64,000 nucleotides of DNA from Chroococcidiopsis sp. CCMEE 29 (GTDB lineage Bacteria > Cyanobacteriota > Cyanobacteriia > Cyanobacteriales > Chroococcidiopsidaceae): NCBI RefSeq assembly GCF_023558375.1, contig NZ_CP083761.1, forward strand, positions 2,350,001-2,414,000, in the 5' to 3' direction. Position numbers and translations under genes: made by a program. Positions 52,036 to 59,938 of the stretch are shown here, in pieces. Every line of letters starts with the position of its first letter. The first letter of the stretch is position 1. The notes under the pieces were generated by a model. It saw nothing but the letters and a program-made list of their open reading frames with translations. It was not told the origin of the DNA and did not search any database.

Positions 52036-54276
52036 ATGAAACCAGATGTGCTAATGACCTCGGATAGGCTTGATCTAGACGGTAAAACTTTTGTTCCTGC
52101 TGAACAATTACCTATCGCAGAATGGCCCTCTGTTGTGAGCGAACAACCTCAACCAACGCTGACAATCAAAGATGATGACTTGTTTTTAGTGACGGACACA
52201 GTGGGCAACATTTCTGGCTGTTTAGGGGATGACCGTGTAGCCAGCATGGGTTTGTTTTGCAGTGATACTCGGTTTCTGAGTCGGCTAGAGTTGCAGATTG
52301 AAGGGCGATCGCCCGTGTTACTCAGTAGTACGGCAGAGAAAGGATTTTTACTCTCAATTTTGTGTACTAATCCTACTGTCGAAGAGCGCCTGCAAGCTGA
52401 AACACTGGGAATTCGGCGAGAAATTGCTCTGGGGGGAGCGCTGTTTGAAGAACTGGAAATTTCCAACTACAGTACTAGCCCTGTTAGCGTTGAACTGAGT
52501 ATCAGCTTTAATGCAGATTTTGTCGATTTGTTTGAAATCCGAGGCTTTAACCGGGAGAAACAAGGCAAACTCTTACGCTCGATTCCCAAAGAAACGGCAC
52601 CAGAACGACAAACGGATCAGCTGATACTCGCTTATCAGGGTCTAGATGGCTCATTAATGGAATCTCACATCTATTTCCAACATTGCAAACCAGACTACTT
52701 CAAGGGTTACACAGCGATTTGGCAATTGGATTTGGGTTCTCATGAAACCCAGAAGTTGGGCTATCGGCTCAATATGTTGATAAACAACCAGCCTACCTCT
52801 AAAATAAGCGCTCCTATAACCTTGGCACAGGCTAAGGCAGCTGAATTGTTGGAGGAGCAACATTGGTGTCAACAAATTACTCGAATTCGCTCAGATAAAG
52901 CCACCTTTAATCAAGTGATTGATCGGGCTGAGCAAGACATGTATTTGATGCGCCAGTCTTTTGGCAAGCTGAACACCGTTTCAGCGGGGGTGCCGTGGTG
53001 TTCAACATTGTTTGGTCGAGACTCGCTAATCACTGCCTCGCAAACACTAATGTTGACCCCCACACTCGCTAGAGAAACACTGCTCTTATTAGCCGCATAC
53101 CAAGGTAAAACTGATGATGAGTGGCGGGAAGAAGAACCGGGCAAAATTTTGCACGAGCTGCGGTTCGGGGAAATGGCTCGCTGCTACGAAATCCCCCACA
53201 CGCCCTACTACGGCACAATTGATGCCACACCCCTGTGGCTCATGCTCTATGCAGAATACTACGCCTGGACTCATGACCAGGAAACCCTAGAAGTATTATG
53301 GCCTAACGCCTTAGCAGCAATGGATTGGATTGACCGCAACTGCCAAAAAACAGGCTATTTGGCATATCTGCGCAAATCTCAGCGCGGTCTGCTTAACCAG
53401 GGATGGAAAGATTCTGGCGACTGTATTGTCAACCGCAAGGGTCAGCTGGCAACCGGACCAATTGCCCTATGTGAAGTACAAGCGTATGTATACGCGGCAA
53501 AAGTGCGTCTGGCAGAAATTGCCCGGATGAAGAAGCGAATTGACCTGGCAGACAGGTGGCAAGAGGAGGCAAGAAATCTTAAAGTCAATTTCAATCGTGA
53601 CTTCTGGATGGCAGACCAGGATTTCTGCGCTCTAGCCCTGGATGGAGAAGGTAAACAGGTAGACAGTATTACCTCGAATCCAGGCCAGTGTCTAAATTTC
53701 GGCATTTTTACACCAGAGAAAGCCTACAGGGTGGCGGAACGGCTGCGGGCACCTGATATGTTCAATAATTGGGGCATTCGCACGTTGAGCAGTTTGTCAC
53801 CCGCTTATAATCCAATGGGCTATCATATTGGTTCGGTCTGGCCGCACGACAATTCGATAATTACGATGGGGTTGCGATCGCTTGGACTAATCGATCAGGC
53901 TTTGGAAGTCTGCCAAGGCTTACTCGATATGACGCTAAAGCAACCTTATCAGCGACCCCCAGAACTGTTTTGCGGCTATGAGCGCAACGGAGATAATGCA
54001 CCTGTTCAATATCCGGTTGCCTGTAGTCCCCAAGCTTGGGCAACTGGCACTATCTTCCACCTGTTGCAAATGATGGTGAATTTGGTACCTGACACCCGGA
54101 ATAATTCCTTGCGGATTATCGACCCCGCTCTACCAAAGTCGATCAATCATCTTTCAGTGCAAAACTTGCGCGTTGGTTCCACCCTGCTCGATCTGGAATT
54201 TGAGCGTTTTGGTAGCACTACAGCCTGTCGCGTTGCTAAAAAAAGGGGTAATCTTCGGGTTGTGATTGAAGCTTGA
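52036..54276 (+). CDS. Amylo-alpha-1,6-glucosidase-type protein (glycogen debranching domain)
   Basis: 746 residues. The N-terminal beta domain (about 40-270; LFLVTDTVGNISGCLGDD, MGLFCSDTRFLSRLEL) precedes an (alpha/alpha)6-barrel typical of amylo-1,6-glucosidases (AGVPWCSTLFGRDSLITASQ; LNQGWKDSGDCIVNRKG; HIGSVWPHDNSIITMGL; ELFCGYERNGDNAPVQYPVA, the last holding probable catalytic Glu). Its natural substrate in cyanobacteria is unclear: glycogen branches or small glucosides. It is cotranscribable with the upstream GT4 gene. Confidence 0.9.
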   Translation: MKPDVLMTSDRLDLDGKTFVPAEQLPIAEWPSVVSEQPQPTLTIKDDDLFLVTDTVGNISGCLGDDRVASMGLFCSDTRFLSRLELQIEGRSPVLLSSTAEKGFLLSILCTNPTVEERLQAETLGIRREIALGGALFEELEISNYSTSPVSVELSISFNADFVDLFEIRGFNREKQGKLLRSIPKETAPERQTDQLILAYQGLDGSLMESHIYFQHCKPDYFKGYTAIWQLDLGSHETQKLGYRLNMLINNQPTSKISAPITLAQAKAAELLEEQHWCQQITRIRSDKATFNQVIDRAEQDMYLMRQSFGKLNTVSAGVPWCSTLFGRDSLITASQTLMLTPTLARETLLLLAAYQGKTDDEWREEEPGKILHELRFGEMARCYEIPHTPYYGTIDATPLWLMLYAEYYAWTHDQETLEVLWPNALAAMDWIDRNCQKTGYLAYLRKSQRGLLNQGWKDSGDCIVNRKGQLATGPIALCEVQAYVYAAKVRLAEIARMKKRIDLADRWQEEARNLKVNFNRDFWMADQDFCALALDGEGKQVDSITSNPGQCLNFGIFTPEKAYRVAERLRAPDMFNNWGIRTLSSLSPAYNPMGYHIGSVWPHDNSIITMGLRSLGLIDQALEVCQGLLDMTLKQPYQRPPELFCGYERNGDNAPVQYPVACSPQAWATGTIFHLLQMMVNLVPDTRNNSLRIIDPALPKSINHLSVQNLRVGSTLLDLEFERFGSTTACRVAKKRGNLRVVIEA

Positions 54277-54289
54277 ACCATAATAGTAG

Positions 54290-54315
54290 GGGTCAGGGGT
54301 CAGAGGTCAGGGGAA
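54290..54315. repeat. GGGGTCA heptamer array
   Basis: Three to four GGGGTCA/GAGGTCA units just after the glucosidase gene; the reverse-complement family of the CCCTGAC array at 8258. Confidence 0.7.
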
Positions 54316-54507
54316 GATGGTTCTACAAACGAATATCTGCATGTACATTCCTCCCCTGCTGCCTTTGCTTCTCTACCTGTCTGCCTGACACATCTTTATG
54401 AACCCTTGGTAAATCAAGTTCGACAGGTTAAGGAACGAATGCGAGAGAACCAAATTTGGTCATAGAAATCACCTGAAAATTGCTAAACCATTCAGCTACC
54501 CCCGCCT

Positions 54508-54648
54508 ATGTTCAGCTTAGAAGAACTCTTCTGCGCCGTCGATGACTTCTGCCAGACCTGTGAACCGCGCTGGCAACAGCAACTGCTCAAGCACGGATTA
54601 TAGACGCGCAACCGAGCACGACAACTGCGTCTGAGCGAAATCATGACG
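54508..54648 (+). pseudogene. IS982-family transposase remnant (N-terminus only)
   Basis: From ATG 54508 the translation begins MFSLEELFCAVDDFCQTCEP and continues RWQQQLLKHGL, then a TAG (54601) where the family has Gln, then TRNRARQLRLSEIMT. This is the start of an IS982 transposase. It breaks off at 54648 exactly where the AAC(3)-I gene remnant begins on the other strand. No IS982 end repeat was found nearby. Confidence 0.75.
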
Positions 54649-54887
54649 GATGTATATCTTGCTGCGCTGCTGCTTGAACTTTTTCAGCTCGTAGGCCGCG
54701 ATGCCGCCGACGACCTCACTGCTTATCAACGCAGTGAGCGCGATGAAGTAGTCACTGCCGAGCAGTCGCTGGAGATACGCTGCATTAGGTCGGTTCCCAC
54801 TATAGGTGTCCACTTCATTGAAGACTTCACCGAAAGTCGCTAACAGGGCTTCCATCAAAGCGACGTCATCAGGTGTAAGTTGGCGAA
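54649..54887 (-). pseudogene. Truncated AAC(3)-I-type aminoglycoside N-acetyltransferase
   Basis: Reading 54887 to 54649 gives IRQLTPDDVALMEALLATFG, then YSGNRPNAAYLQRLLGSDYF and GGIAAYELKKFKQQRSKIYI, a clear match to the GNAT group of AAC(3)-I enzymes (intact length about 150-175). The acetyl-CoA loop and C-terminal half are lost at the IS982 junction. A TGA lies two codons before the homologous start, so the original ATG is also damaged. An in-frame Met at 54858 leaves 86 residues. It sits directly behind an attC-like site. Confidence 0.78.
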
Positions 54888-54916
54888 TGCTTCAAGACAC
54901 GGGCAACTCCTAAGCA

Positions 54917-54999
54917 GCATAACGGCATAGTTGAGCGGCGACCGACCAACGTGAAACGAAGAAGAAGGCTTTTTTCGCCGCTCCAACGCAGTGTTAGGT
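54917..54999 (-). other. Integron attC-like recombination site
   Basis: On the minus strand: R'' ACCTAAC (54999-54993) fits RYYYAAC; then a 5-nt spacer, GTTG, one extra G, and AGCGGCG; a variable centre; then CGCCGCT, CAAC, a 6-nt spacer and R' GTTATGC (54923-54917), one base off GTTRRRY. The TAAC/GTTA and GTTG/CAAC pairs, the unpaired spacers and the single extrahelical G are the hallmarks of folded attC hairpins. 83 bp is within the attC size range. It lies after the GNAT gene (stop 55102) and before the AAC(3)-I remnant, on the same strand. Confidence 0.7.
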
Positions 55000-55101
55000 T
55001 GCTCTTCACCCGACTGTTCCAAATACCTATCCCTCTTGACTGCTATACTGCTGTGCTTAAATACAGCCGAAAATTTCTTGATTTGTGGTACCCCTTGATC
55101 T

Positions 55102-55602
55102 CTATAAGGCGCGTTCGATCATGATTTCGTCTACATATCTCCCGTTGATCTTTGCGTGTCTTTGCGCCGTTCCAATGATACGAAAACCTTGGCTGAGATA
55201 GGTTGCTAATGCTGCTGTATTATCCGCACGGACATATGCAAATAGCTTCTCGTATCCCTTGCAACGAGCGGCTTCAAACGCAGCTTTGAACAGACTTCTA
55301 CCAATACCTTGTCGCCGACATGAGAGAGATACATAAGTTCCAATTACTCCTACATGATCGAAGGCACAAGTGTAGGTAGCAAATGGTTCTATATTTTGAA
55401 ATCCTACGATTTCTTGTTTATGGCGACAAACAGCTACATGAAATATGCCACGTTGAGGAAAACGCAAAATAAATTCTTGTTCAGCTTCTACGGAGAACGG
55501 GGTAGTTAGTACTGTATATGCTCCAACTTCAATGATCGGGTTTAGTATGGCTAAAATCGCTTCAGCGTCATCGAGTTGAGCGGCTCGAATTAGCAGATCC
55601 AC
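55102..55602 (-). CDS. GNAT family N-acetyltransferase, probable gene-cassette cargo
   Basis: 166 residues, intact. GNAT features: start LLIRAAQLDDAEAILAILNP, beta-4/beta-5 GVIGTYVSLSCRR and acetyl-CoA loop RRQGIGRSLF. The closest general type is the phosphinothricin/amino-acid acetyltransferase group (ILNPIIEVGAYTVLTTPFS). An AGGAGGTGATT-like Shine-Dalgarno precedes the ATG. Its stop is 103 bp before an attC-like site on the same strand, so gene plus attC have cassette geometry. Substrate unknown; acetyltransferases are frequent integron cargo. Confidence 0.88.
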   Translation of the reverse strand: MDLLIRAAQLDDAEAILAILNPIIEVGAYTVLTTPFSVEAEQEFILRFPQRGIFHVAVCRHKQEIVGFQNIEPFATYTCAFDHVGVIGTYVSLSCRRQGIGRSLFKAAFEAARCKGYEKLFAYVRADNTAALATYLSQGFRIIGTAQRHAKINGRYVDEIMIERAL

Positions 55603-55718
55603 TCAATCACCTCCTTCATTAAGGAACTTCCTTGTCAGGAAATATGCTAAACCAAAAATCCTAAACCTTACTAATACCTCCCTGGAACAAGATATTATCG
55701 ATGCCCTGAAAATCCCGT

Positions 55719-55925
55719 CTACCAACAATGCACCCTAACGGCAAAGATGAGCACCAATCGACGCGGCAACACGGCAATATAATCTGTTTGTGCCAAAATG
55801 ATTGGCGCTAACAGAAAACTCGGCACCGTAAATGCCACCCGTCGCTTTAATCCCACTTCCGCCCAAATATCATCAACAAAGCCAGAAGCATCTCTACGCG
55901 AAATCAATAATTGTGGTGTTTCTGC
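55719..55925 (-). pseudogene. LysR-type regulator C-terminal fragment
   Basis: Translation on the minus strand reads AETPQLLISRRDASGFVDDI, then AEVGLKRRVAFTVPSFLLAP and ILAQTDYIAVLPRRL. This matches the end of a LysR substrate-binding domain. The HTH half is absent and the reading continues into unrelated codons (LIFAVRVHCW). Not related in position to the LysR pseudogene at 44359. Confidence 0.7.
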
Positions 55926-56093
55926 AAAAGTTTCTAGGGTTGTTTATTGTTGATATCAACGCCGTACCGCAGCCACATATATTTCGCACTCTAAACTTTA
56001 GTTATTTCTATTGTGAATACCTGCCTTTACTGATAAGGACTTCGCGCTAAGATTATTCAAAGCACTGCGATCGCACAATCCCATATAATACTT

Positions 56094-56417
56094 TTACTCG
56101 TCAAGTAATACTCGAAAATCCCAACAACCCACTTCTTCCAAGCAAAGATAACTGGGTCTGACGGCATCATTCAAAACCAAGTTTTTCTCATCCGTATCCT
56201 TCAGGAGTTCTGCAACAAAAACAAGAGTGTTCAATCCTGCTTTTACGCCATCGGTATAATCCTGCAAGAGGTTTTGAACAGATTTAATCCCCTTCCACGC
56301 GTTGAGCTTTTTGAGCGTATCTTTCACCACTTTGCGGTCGAGTTCGTCTGGTAACTATTCGAGCATACTGGTTTGTTGCTGGACTTTATTCAGCCGCCTG
56401 ACGCGATCGTGACATTC
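56094..56417 (-). pseudogene. Unrecognised coding fragment with an internal stop
   Basis: The frame reads ECHDRVRRLNKVQQQTSMLE, then a TAG (56357-56355), then LPDELDRKVVKDTLKKLNAW and 60 more residues to a stop at 56094. The sequence on both sides of the stop looks like one helical protein (basic, Leu/Lys-rich), so I think it is a decayed gene. I do not recognise the family. From GTG 56330 a 78-residue piece remains open. Confidence 0.45.
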
Positions 56418-56648
56418 TCAGGCAATCGCATTTTCTGATTTACAAACTGTGTTTGTAAATGCAGTTTTTAGTAAATACGAAAGCTCTTTAAAAGCTTTTA
56501 TGTTACACCATCTGGCAATGTGAGCACATTCATTAAGTGGGTGCTCTTATGCCAAACTCAATAATGGCAGGGTTATATATTTTCTATGGGCGCTATCAAA
56601 GCGATTCCAGGCATTGCATAATAAAGGGAGGAAGTGAGGCTAAATCCC

Positions 56649-57212
56649 ATGCAATGTCCTGAGTGTAGTTCATCCTATATTCGAAAAAATGGACAACGAC
56701 GCGGTAAGCAAAATCACATTTGTGTCGATGGCGGTCGTTAGTTTATTGATAATTATGAATCGCCTCAAAAGTACAGTGACTTTGTCAAACGTGAGTGCCT
56801 CAATAATGTATGTGAATGGCATGGGATTTAGGGCAATCGAACGAGTCAAGGGGGTGCATCACACTACGATCATTTATTGGGTCAAACAAGTCGCACAAAG
56901 CCTGCCGGACACCTACGATCCACAGACCATTCCCCAAGTCGGTGAACTTGACGAGTTGGAAACATTTGTCAGAGCAAAAAAAACAAAATCTGGCTGTGGA
57001 CAGCACTAGACCATTTCAGTGCAGGCATTCTGGGCTGGGTGTTGGGTGATCTTAGTGGGGAGACGCTTCAACCGTTGTGGGCAATTGTGGAAGCCTGGAA
57101 GTGTTACTTCTATGTCACCGATGGTTGGAGCGTATATCCAAGCTTTATCCCACCAGCAGATCAGATTGTCAGTCATCCCATCATTCAGCAACGCCGAAAA
57201 AACTATAACTAA
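56649..57212 (+). pseudogene. IS1-family transposase remnant
   Basis: From ATG 56649: MQCPECSSSYIRKNGQRRGK, zinc-ribbon start of an IS1 transposase, with a Cys-to-Gly change (VDGGR) and a TAG. A frame change at about 56800 leads to MYVNGMGFRAIERVKGVHHT, TIIYWVKQVAQSLPDTYD and VGELDELETFV; another at about 56980 to IWLWTALDHFSAGILGWVLG and WSVYPSFIPPADQIVS. Homology stops there, about 70-80 residues short of the end. Frameshifts exceed the single programmed shift of IS1. The left end may be near 56540 (GGTGCTCTTATGCC). Confidence 0.82.
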
Positions 57213-57214
57213 CG

Positions 57215-58585
57215 ATGCAAACTTCAGAAACTCCTTTAAACCATCTATCTAATTCAACTCCCGCTACACTAAAAAATTTGAGCGGCTTTGACGATCGTCA
57301 TCCTCCCGATCCAAAGCTGATTGATACTTGTGTTCACTGCGGGTTTTGTCTTTCTACTTGTCCCAGTTACCGGGTGATTGGTAAAGAAATGGATTCTCCG
57401 CGGGGTCGAATCTATCTGATGGACGCTATCAACGAAGGTGAGATTGCCCTAAACACTGCTACAGTGCAGCATTTTGATTCTTGCCTTGGGTGTCTTGCCT
57501 GTGTCACCACTTGTCCATCTGGTGTACAGTACGACAAGCTGATTGCTGCTACTCGTCCGCAAATTGAGCGGAATTACCCGCGGAGTTTGCCAGAAAAGCT
57601 GTATAGAAGACTCATTTTTTCTGTCTTTCCCTATCCCAATCGACTACGTTTGTTGTTAGTTCCCTTGCTGGTATATCAAGCATTAGGCTTGCAAAAACTA
57701 GTCCGCGCTACTGGGTTACTCAAGCGGTTCTCTCCTCGATTGGCAGCAATGGAATCAATTCTGCCAAAAATTTCACTCAAATCTTTCTGGGATAGTCTCC
57801 CAACTGTGATTCCAGCTCAAGGTGAGCAGCGCTACCGTGTAGGCATGATTTTAGGTTGCGTGCAACGGCTGTTTTTCTCACCCGTGAACGAAGCAACGGT
57901 GAGGGTTCTAACCGCAAATGGCTGTGAAGTAGTTATTCCTAAAACTCAAGGTTGTTGTGCAGCACTACCGCACCACCAGGGACAAGAGGAGCAAGCAAAA
58001 GCCTTAGCTAGACAGATGATTGATAGCTTTGAAAACAGTGGTGTGGATGTCATTATTATCAATGCAGCTGGCTGTGGTCATACATTGAAGGAATACGAGC
58101 AGCTGTTGCAAGATGACCCAGACTATCGGGAAAAGGCAAAGAAATTTGCTGCTAAGGTAAAAGATGTCCAAGAGTTTTTAGCAACAGCTGGGTTAACTAC
58201 GCCACTTTCACCGCTGGCTGATAAACCGCTAACTTTGGTGTATCAAGATGCCTGTCATTTACTGCACGGACAAAAAATTAGCGTGCAACCGCGTCAGTTA
58301 TTGCGACAACTACCAGGCGTGCAACTGCGGGAACCAATTGATGCAGCTTTGTGTTGTGGCAGTGCAGGTGTTTACAATATGCTGCAACCAGAAGTAGCCG
58401 ATGAATTAGGTCAGCAAAAAGTCCAAAATTTGCTGAATACGGGTGCTGATTTAATTTCGTCTGCTAATCCGGGTTGTACTTTGCAAATTACCCAGCATTT
58501 GCGGTTGCAAGGTAAAAAAATTTCCATCATGCATCCGATGGAGTTGTTAGATTATGCGATTCGCGGGGTGAAGCTCAAAACCTAG
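57215..58585 (+). CDS. glcF: Glycolate oxidase/dehydrogenase iron-sulfur subunit
   Basis: 456 residues. Two 4Fe-4S motifs near the N-terminus (CVHCGFCLSTCPSYR; CLGCLACVTTCPSG) and two CCG-type cysteine-rich domains (GCCAALPHHQGQEEQAKALA; ALCCGSAGVYNMLQPE) identify GlcF, the electron-transfer subunit of glycolate dehydrogenase (with GlcD/GlcE), the first step of photorespiratory glycolate removal. GlcD is not in this window. The ATG is 2 bp after the IS1 remnant and has no clear Shine-Dalgarno, so its native upstream region may have been replaced. Confidence 0.92.
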   Translation: MQTSETPLNHLSNSTPATLKNLSGFDDRHPPDPKLIDTCVHCGFCLSTCPSYRVIGKEMDSPRGRIYLMDAINEGEIALNTATVQHFDSCLGCLACVTTCPSGVQYDKLIAATRPQIERNYPRSLPEKLYRRLIFSVFPYPNRLRLLLVPLLVYQALGLQKLVRATGLLKRFSPRLAAMESILPKISLKSFWDSLPTVIPAQGEQRYRVGMILGCVQRLFFSPVNEATVRVLTANGCEVVIPKTQGCCAALPHHQGQEEQAKALARQMIDSFENSGVDVIIINAAGCGHTLKEYEQLLQDDPDYREKAKKFAAKVKDVQEFLATAGLTTPLSPLADKPLTLVYQDACHLLHGQKISVQPRQLLRQLPGVQLREPIDAALCCGSAGVYNMLQPEVADELGQQKVQNLLNTGADLISSANPGCTLQITQHLRLQGKKISIMHPMELLDYAIRGVKLKT

Positions 58586-58883: not shown

Positions 58884-59477
58884 CTAAATAGGGCATGAAC
58901 AGTAGCCATACATAAAGGCTTTAGGAAAGTCAAAGGTTTGCAGATGAGTCAGCAAGTGAAACAGGAGCTTGACGGACCTAAATTTGTGGCATAGCCTAGC
59001 ATACTTGCGGATAAACTGTTTGGCTTGCAACCAGATGTCTTCGACAGGATTTTGTTGGGGGGCATTGGGAGCCAGTCGAATACAGGTGATCTGCCACTCG
59101 TCTTGGGGAAGGTCTGCATTCACCTGAGCCAGGAACTGCTGCACCTTACCTGAGCGATGGTAGCTGGCTCCATCCCAAATCAGGATCAACCGAGTGGATG
59201 CGCCATAGCAGGTCTGGAGATACTCCACAAATGCAATCGTATTGTCTTCATTGCCTGCACTGTACTCTTGCACAACGAAATTCTTGGTTAGATAATCCAG
59301 CGCTCCATAGTAGGTCTGCCGTTGCTTAGTTGATTTGACCTCGATATCCACCCGTTGATTGCGTCGGCTCCATCCATAGCCACAGATATCTCCCCACAGC
59401 AAATGGCATTCGTCCAGAAACATTACTCGCACTTGACCACTGGCAATCGCGGCCTGCCACTGCACCAGTAACTCCAT
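58884..59477 (-). CDS. IS630 transposase, catalytic (DDE) half
   Basis: 197 residues from ATG 59477, in frame upstream to the slippery site. DDE residues: Asp in MFLDECHLLWGD, Asp in LILIWDGASYHRSG and Glu in NAPQQNPVEDIWLQAKQF. Expressed as a fusion with the upstream HTH half through a frameshift at a run of eight A (complement of 59486-59493). It cuts and re-joins DNA at TA sites. The last residues read into the inverted repeat. Confidence 0.88.
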   Translation of the reverse strand: MELLVQWQAAIASGQVRVMFLDECHLLWGDICGYGWSRRNQRVDIEVKSTKQRQTYYGALDYLTKNFVVQEYSAGNEDNTIAFVEYLQTCYGASTRLILIWDGASYHRSGKVQQFLAQVNADLPQDEWQITCIRLAPNAPQQNPVEDIWLQAKQFIRKYARLCHKFRSVKLLFHLLTHLQTFDFPKAFMYGYCSCPI

Positions 59478-59938
59478 GATTTCAGTTTTTTTTCCTCCAC
59501 TTGCGTCTCATCTTTGTCCGGGTGGGCCGAGTGAGACTTCTTCCAACTGAATCCGGCTTGCTTGAGTAAAGCGTAGTAGCTCTGATAAGAGCGATAAACG
59601 ACCCCGTAGGCGTCCTCAATCTGCTGAACTACCTCTTCGAGCAGCCACGCGTCCTTTTGTGCCAACCACTGCAGAATCTCTTGCTTTTGCTGAGGGTTGA
59701 GATAGCCCTGCGTTCCCCAGTAGTTCAATTTGAGGCCTTCAACCCCATTCGCCTCGTACCGCTGACAACAAGTTGTGACAAACCCAAGCGAGACTTGCAG
59801 CACATCTCGGATTTCCCGATAGGTATGACCTCGCTGGCTCATCTGGACTGCCAGGGCACGTTTGAGTTCACGAGGGTTACGATTGCTTTGGATAAACTGT
59901 TCAAGGGTATCCATCAGGTCCTTAGCATCATCTCTCAA
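59423..59938 (-). CDS. IS630 transposase, DNA-binding (HTH) half
   Basis: 171 residues. Two HTH units: MSQRGHTYREIRDVLQVSLG with FVTTCCQRYEANG, and a Winged-helix_33-like second domain (LNPQQKQEILQWLAQKDAWL; VYRSYQSYYALLKQAGFSWK). The 3' part after the A8 run (KSWSYWCSGRPRLPVVKCE) is out of the transposase frame, as expected for programmed frameshifting in this family. Confidence 0.88.
   Translation of the reverse strand: MRDDAKDLMDTLEQFIQSNRNPRELKRALAVQMSQRGHTYREIRDVLQVSLGFVTTCCQRYEANGVEGLKLNYWGTQGYLNPQQKQEILQWLAQKDAWLLEEVVQQIEDAYGVVYRSYQSYYALLKQAGFSWKKSHSAHPDKDETQVEEKKLKSWSYWCSGRPRLPVVKCE

Follow-up and report, generated by a model that had tools for sequence, protein, structure and literature searches.

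Integrons, CALINs and SALINs in cyanobacteria

In the usual integron layout, intI is divergent from the attC array. Integrons were reported from Cyanobacteria (PMC8618304, PMC2426708), and an attC model for this group was published (PMC8352920). CALINs were found to be widespread and may come from off-target insertion, loss of intI or rearrangement (PMC8618304, PMC9024848), whereby IntegronFinder 2 identified on average almost 6 attC sites per CALIN (PMC9024848). SALIN is likewise an established term (PMC12690207), and PMC12444791 and PMC12901181 cite insertion at attG sites, which are non-classical targets. Cyanobacterial integrons, CALINs and SALINs are hence already described; the literature searched, itself incomplete, yielded no report of attC relics being dispersed in cyanobacteria.

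The locus considered here resides within a window of 64 kb, this being the whole stretch of DNA that was analysed, and was initially suggested to lie in a cyanobacterial chromosome; the host is a cyanobacterium. It is very probably a chromosomal integron relic, in which a GNAT acetyltransferase cassette with its attC site precedes a truncated AAC(3)-I gene that was probably the next cassette. With CALINs and SALINs the locus has in common that attC and cargo are found with degraded neighbours and no functional intI in cis, but in this single genome 43 sites are distributed over 28 places, with two replicons being involved. Sedentary chromosomal integrons of cyanobacteria resemble it in having an attC array divergent from intI (C1:2428853-2436402 in this genome, C1 being the chromosome) and in the site sequence class, which is common with family members having an intact IntI, whereas here intI is cut to 36 residues and the catalytic arginine is lost. 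Class 1 integron cassettes (aac(3)-I, aadA and OXA cargo) are like it in attC architecture and in the kinds of cargo carried (an AAC(3)-I remnant at this locus; at other attC sites of the genome, APH-like genes and a class D beta-lactamase), but the unstructured centre is longer here (~40 nt), intI1 is lacking and the locus is not on a resistance plasmid.

Table 1. Window coordinates of the cassette pair, its attC boxes and the left flank
Feature	Position	Strand	Basis
LysR regulator fragment	55740..55892	-	NF050187 2.8e-5
Intact GNAT acetyltransferase, cassette cargo, 166 aa	55102..55602	-	ORF; Pfam Acetyltransf_1 5.1e-15
GNAT 3' untranslated stretch to attC	55003..55101	-	conserved with G388:C24, 92% over 398 nt
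attC site	54916..55000	-	covariance model R1 and sequence
R'' box ACCTAAC	54999-54993	-	sequence
R''-L'' spacer ACTGC, 5 nt		-	sequence
L'' box GTTGGAGCGGC	54987-54977	-	sequence
L' box GCCGCTCAAC	54939-54930	-	sequence
L'-R' spacer TATGCC, 6 nt		-	sequence
R' box GTTATGC	54923-54917	-	sequence
AAC(3)-I pseudogene	54649..54915	-	NF033083; alignment to Nostoc sp. C057

The attC site

The original prediction described an attC-like palindrome with ordered boxes, unpaired spacers and one extrahelical G, and both the sequence and a covariance model (R1) agree with this description. The boxes are inverted in the order R''-spacer-L''...L'-spacer-R' and carry the conserved AAC/GTT core, whereby the L''/L' stem (GTTG-G-AGCGGC versus GCCGCT-CAAC) leaves one extrahelical G (54984/54983) in L'', the kind of base that gives strand choice; the pair adjoining this base covaries across 21 cyanobacterial sites. 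The crossover is predicted to fall between G54923 and T54922. The centre between L'' and L' comprises ~37-40 nt and is unstructured, and since this is so, the single-strand folding energy is no better than that of shuffles (z -0.53 and -0.82). Upon folding, the expected stem is predicted but with an energy not above that of shuffles, and a second cyanobacterial attC in the same genome likewise folds weakly (z -1.1). A box-and-stem detector, which also picks out clinical attC sites on resistance plasmids, scored the window site with 10.5, a score reached by ~0.03 matches per 64 kb upon dinucleotide shuffling of the whole window.

Model R1 was trained with 21 attC sites coming from the array of this genome, one lone site and cyanobacterial relatives, many of the latter sites adjoining IntI genes, while the window site was excluded. 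Within the R1 alignment the assumed stem is paired in 86% of cells, a value which drops to 30-38% when the stem is slid by one column; both-side changes occur in 14 of 20 pairs, and the covariation score lies above that of 500/500 shuffles. An attC model match had been proposed as a check of the palindrome, and R1 identified the site with 52.7 bits and an E-value of 6.9e-12 (R1 E-values are rough, coming from a short calibration) as the sole match in the 64 kb. Clinical attC sites were unseen in training and served as test, and their MAFFT alignment, in which the 3' arm was misaligned, was not used for the model. The plasmid sites of cmlA1 (36.3 bits), aadA1 (33.5 bits), aadA2 (30.8 bits), lnuF and aac(6')-Ib were recovered at the correct place and on the correct strand, and R1 therefore recognises attC rather than a local repeat. 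Judged by its sequence, the palindrome separating GNAT and AAC(3)-I is a true attC, an integron recombination site for which recombination by IntI is predicted.

The GNAT gene and the AAC(3)-I remnant

Both genes were found as initially described. The GNAT gene is intact and nearest to ArsN1/PAT-type N-acetyltransferases, albeit below any cut-off (NF040503 85.9 bits, cut-off 170), and, as in a gene cassette, it is a single ORF on the same strand as attC, ending 101 nt before it. In another genus of the same family (G388:C24) the GNAT gene, the stretch 3' of it and attC up to L'' (the 5' half, R''-L'') are conserved with 92% nucleotide identity; homology then breaks inside attC, and what comes next is a cassette with another acetyltransferase gene and a complete attC. 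No attC was identified with a second copy of the gene in that genome (G388:C67, 92%), nor with three more distant copies at 70-75%, and because such homologues exist, the GNAT gene is not always a cassette. GNAT homologues devoid of the palindrome had been named beforehand as evidence against an attC, and the outcome was divided, as the G388:C24 copy keeps half of the site while G388:C67 and the distant homologues are without it. As dN/dS amounts to 0.25 versus the close G388 copy and to 0.12-0.19 versus the three distant copies, purifying selection acts on the gene, which probably still functions.

On the left, homology of the LysR fragment ends within one base of the GCC/GTTAGG junction at 55739, whereas LysR homologues run past this point; 55738/55739 is the candidate left edge of the GNAT cassette, with the LysR homologues (47-48%) being too diverged to place the junction to the base. 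Both cassette edges would lie at G^TT, the right one being supported by the G388:C24 and Nostoc comparisons and the left one being deduced from the LysR break.

Beyond attC, homology to a plasmid gene of Nostoc sp. C057 begins 7 nt past the crossover. The AAC(3)-I remnant matches NF033083 with 88.3 bits (cut-off 200) over model positions 12-84 of 145, carries a frameshift near the start codon and lacks ~40% at its 3' end, homology to its plasmid relatives stopping at about 54634-54649. The gene is dead. A suspected IS982 remnant at 54508-54648 (+), for which no NCBIfam match was obtained, may have caused the truncation. The AAC(3)-I piece was likely a cassette too; its own attC is gone.

attC sites, integrase remnant and cassette movement in the genome

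Similar sites elsewhere in the genome had been anticipated, and R1 identified ~42 of them besides the window site. Altogether, 43 attC sites at E<1e-3 (6 of which were R1 training sites) are found on chromosome C1 and the 673-kb second replicon C2, corresponding to 28 loci if same-strand sites within 4 kb of each other are counted as one locus; most loci carry one attC. With at least two attC sites being the mark of a CALIN, the array of 6 sites at C1:2431646-2436402 (+), 26.6 kb from the window pair, is one. Cargo located just upstream of the sites includes acetyltransferases, a glutathione-transferase-like gene, methyltransferases, MarR and LysR regulators, a PIN toxin with antitoxin, an APH-family kinase, a nucleotidyltransferase and a class D beta-lactamase. 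The latter (OXA-type, 289 bits, cut-off 250) lies directly before a lone attC (C1:5292798-5293776). At C1:4894392-4894561 two attC sites share an overlap of 16 nt and enclose no gene; this may be a cassette whose cargo was lost.

Using an IntI model, no intact intI was identified in the genome, nor a functional intI with the IntI-specific insert, as a complete integron would possess. The only IntI-like piece (C1:2428853-2428963 (-), 36 aa) is 86% identical to intact cyanobacterial IntI and has HTFRHSF changed to HTFCHSF, with the catalytic Arg being replaced by Cys. It adjoins the 6-site array, from which it is divergent, and locates outside the window, 24 kb from the pair. The observation that no integrase was in view hence holds for the window but not for its surroundings, where the decayed relic resides. 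The remaining tyrosine recombinases that the IntI model picked up were of Xer/phage type, without the IntI insert, and were rejected. Within the same family, full-length IntI is present in four genomes (G395, G387, G392, G391) and broken copies in three (G005, G396, G397); as intact and broken IntI thus occur side by side, integrase loss is recurrent. G396 further possesses 44 attC sites at E<1e-4 along with its broken IntI pieces, and is hence a second genome in which attC is massively scattered.

Two cassette units were found to be duplicated. A GNAT cassette of 689 nt has copies at C1:63182-63870 and C2:67088-67776 that differ by 5 mismatches, whereby the left end reads TTATGCGG in both copies with unrelated flanks; on the right both end at the R' core GTTA, and beyond it they diverge. 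At its left junction the C2 duplicate reads A^TT, not G^TT, which counts against the relic explanation. The start of a toxin-antitoxin cassette (420 nt at 99.5%) is shared by C1:2433205 and C1:4156308; it begins at R', the attC site before it is a different one at each place, and the flanks diverge from the crossover outward. Judged from their ends, these two duplicated units are the trace that would be expected of IntI-driven cassette movement, and since they occur twice at 99.3-99.5% with ends at the attC crossover, cassette movement was fairly recent. The C2 copy (C2:67040-67820) is bordered by TACATAAC and TTATGTA, which form an inverted repeat resembling a small attC-type target.

Origin of the cassette pair

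The suggested course of events assumes that, while IntI was active in the lineage, single-stranded folded attC hairpins recombined at G^TT, and that active IntI moved cassettes, some of them to places outside the main array. Subsequently, the integrase would have decayed to the 36-residue fragment, whereupon the 43 attC sites of the 28 loci would have become fixed in place. The GNAT gene may be retained today since its product is useful, while attC would now be idle in cis and usable by an IntI arriving from elsewhere. The pair would have arrived either by off-target insertion or as the remainder of a longer array. The window holds one attC with no intI nearby, which corresponds to a SALIN, and not the two or more sites of a CALIN; as only this one attC is present, the pair is a SALIN or the rump of an array. 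An attC cluster lacking an integrase, as originally proposed, was thus borne out as an integrase-less relic but not as a cluster, the multi-site CALIN being located 26.6 kb off.

That the palindrome arose by chance or belongs to an unrelated repeat family (MITE, REP element) would be in keeping with the folding energy and with an Rfam scan of 53,000-57,500, in which no family matched, but is extremely improbable considering the R1 match obtained with a model built without the window site, an order of boxes and a bulge that match clinical attC, the covariation of the stem, cargo typical of cassettes and the association of attC with IntI across genomes. More weight, though still little, is given to the GNAT gene being a resident with only attC or a cassette fragment dropped behind it, so that the pair never moved as a cassette. 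GNAT copies without attC exist, and a parallel is given by the methyltransferase before the lone attC at C1:1049915, which is family-wide and, in the relatives examined, is not followed by an attC; these relatives gave no clean empty site for this attC, because they carry the flanking esterase and methyltransferase in different places. This explanation is nonetheless distinctly unlikely, as GNAT gene, 3' stretch and half of attC are common to G388:C24, where another gene comes next, as would be expected of one cassette residing in two arrays, and as identical cassette units occupy two places elsewhere in the genome.

Given an integron relic, the pair may have come from off-target insertion at a non-attC site of the attG type instead of being an array remainder. 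Insertion at attG-type sites was reportedly shown for E. coli by Loot et al. in 2024. This sub-case of the relic is possible, if somewhat doubtful: most of the 28 loci have one attC, the LysR homology ends close to GTTAGG and the E. coli precedent is cited in PMC12444791 and PMC12901181, but two successive cargo genes suggest an array, the far side of LysR was not found behind the AAC(3)-I piece and no empty site was found. As no relative having the same locus without the insertion was found, precise insertion at the window locus is putative. Going further than the relic itself, the integron of this family might be effectively distributed, with cassettes scattered singly on the chromosome and second replicon by off-target insertion, persisting and moving after local integrase loss via in-trans integrases that come and go. 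This idea is rather unlikely; if true, the whole genome and not one array would be the cassette store.

Spread among cyanobacteria and neighbouring features

The genome-wide scatter of attC without integrase is unusually widespread and more interesting than the window pair. At least one attC was identified in 45 of 60 relatives (R1, E 1e-4) and, across 386 cyanobacteria, in at least 83 (R1, E 1e-6), the site counts of the latter survey being lower bounds as scoring covered at most 11 candidates per genome. An IntI over the family cut-off was found in 22 of the 386, integron relics thus being far commoner than integrases in cyanobacteria, and attC presence tracks IntI (17/22 genomes with IntI versus 66/364 without, p 1e-8). 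With these data, a lone palindrome was confirmed as an integron site from raw sequence, and whether the attC scatter stems from off-target insertion or array decay becomes testable. Old cassette stores of this kind, with the AAC(3)-I remnant and the class D beta-lactamase, point to environmental carriers of resistance-type genes.

Several further features were recognised in the window. The glycosidase-like gene at 52036-54276 has a Chroococcidiopsidaceae MAG protein as its closest named relative (80% over the full length), which makes this the probable family of the host. At 56610-57172 a transposase-like remnant is located which is 74% identical to C1:2424412-2424973 in the same genome, and at 58884-59938 (-), as read from the translation only, two overlapping ORFs resemble one split IS630-type transposase.
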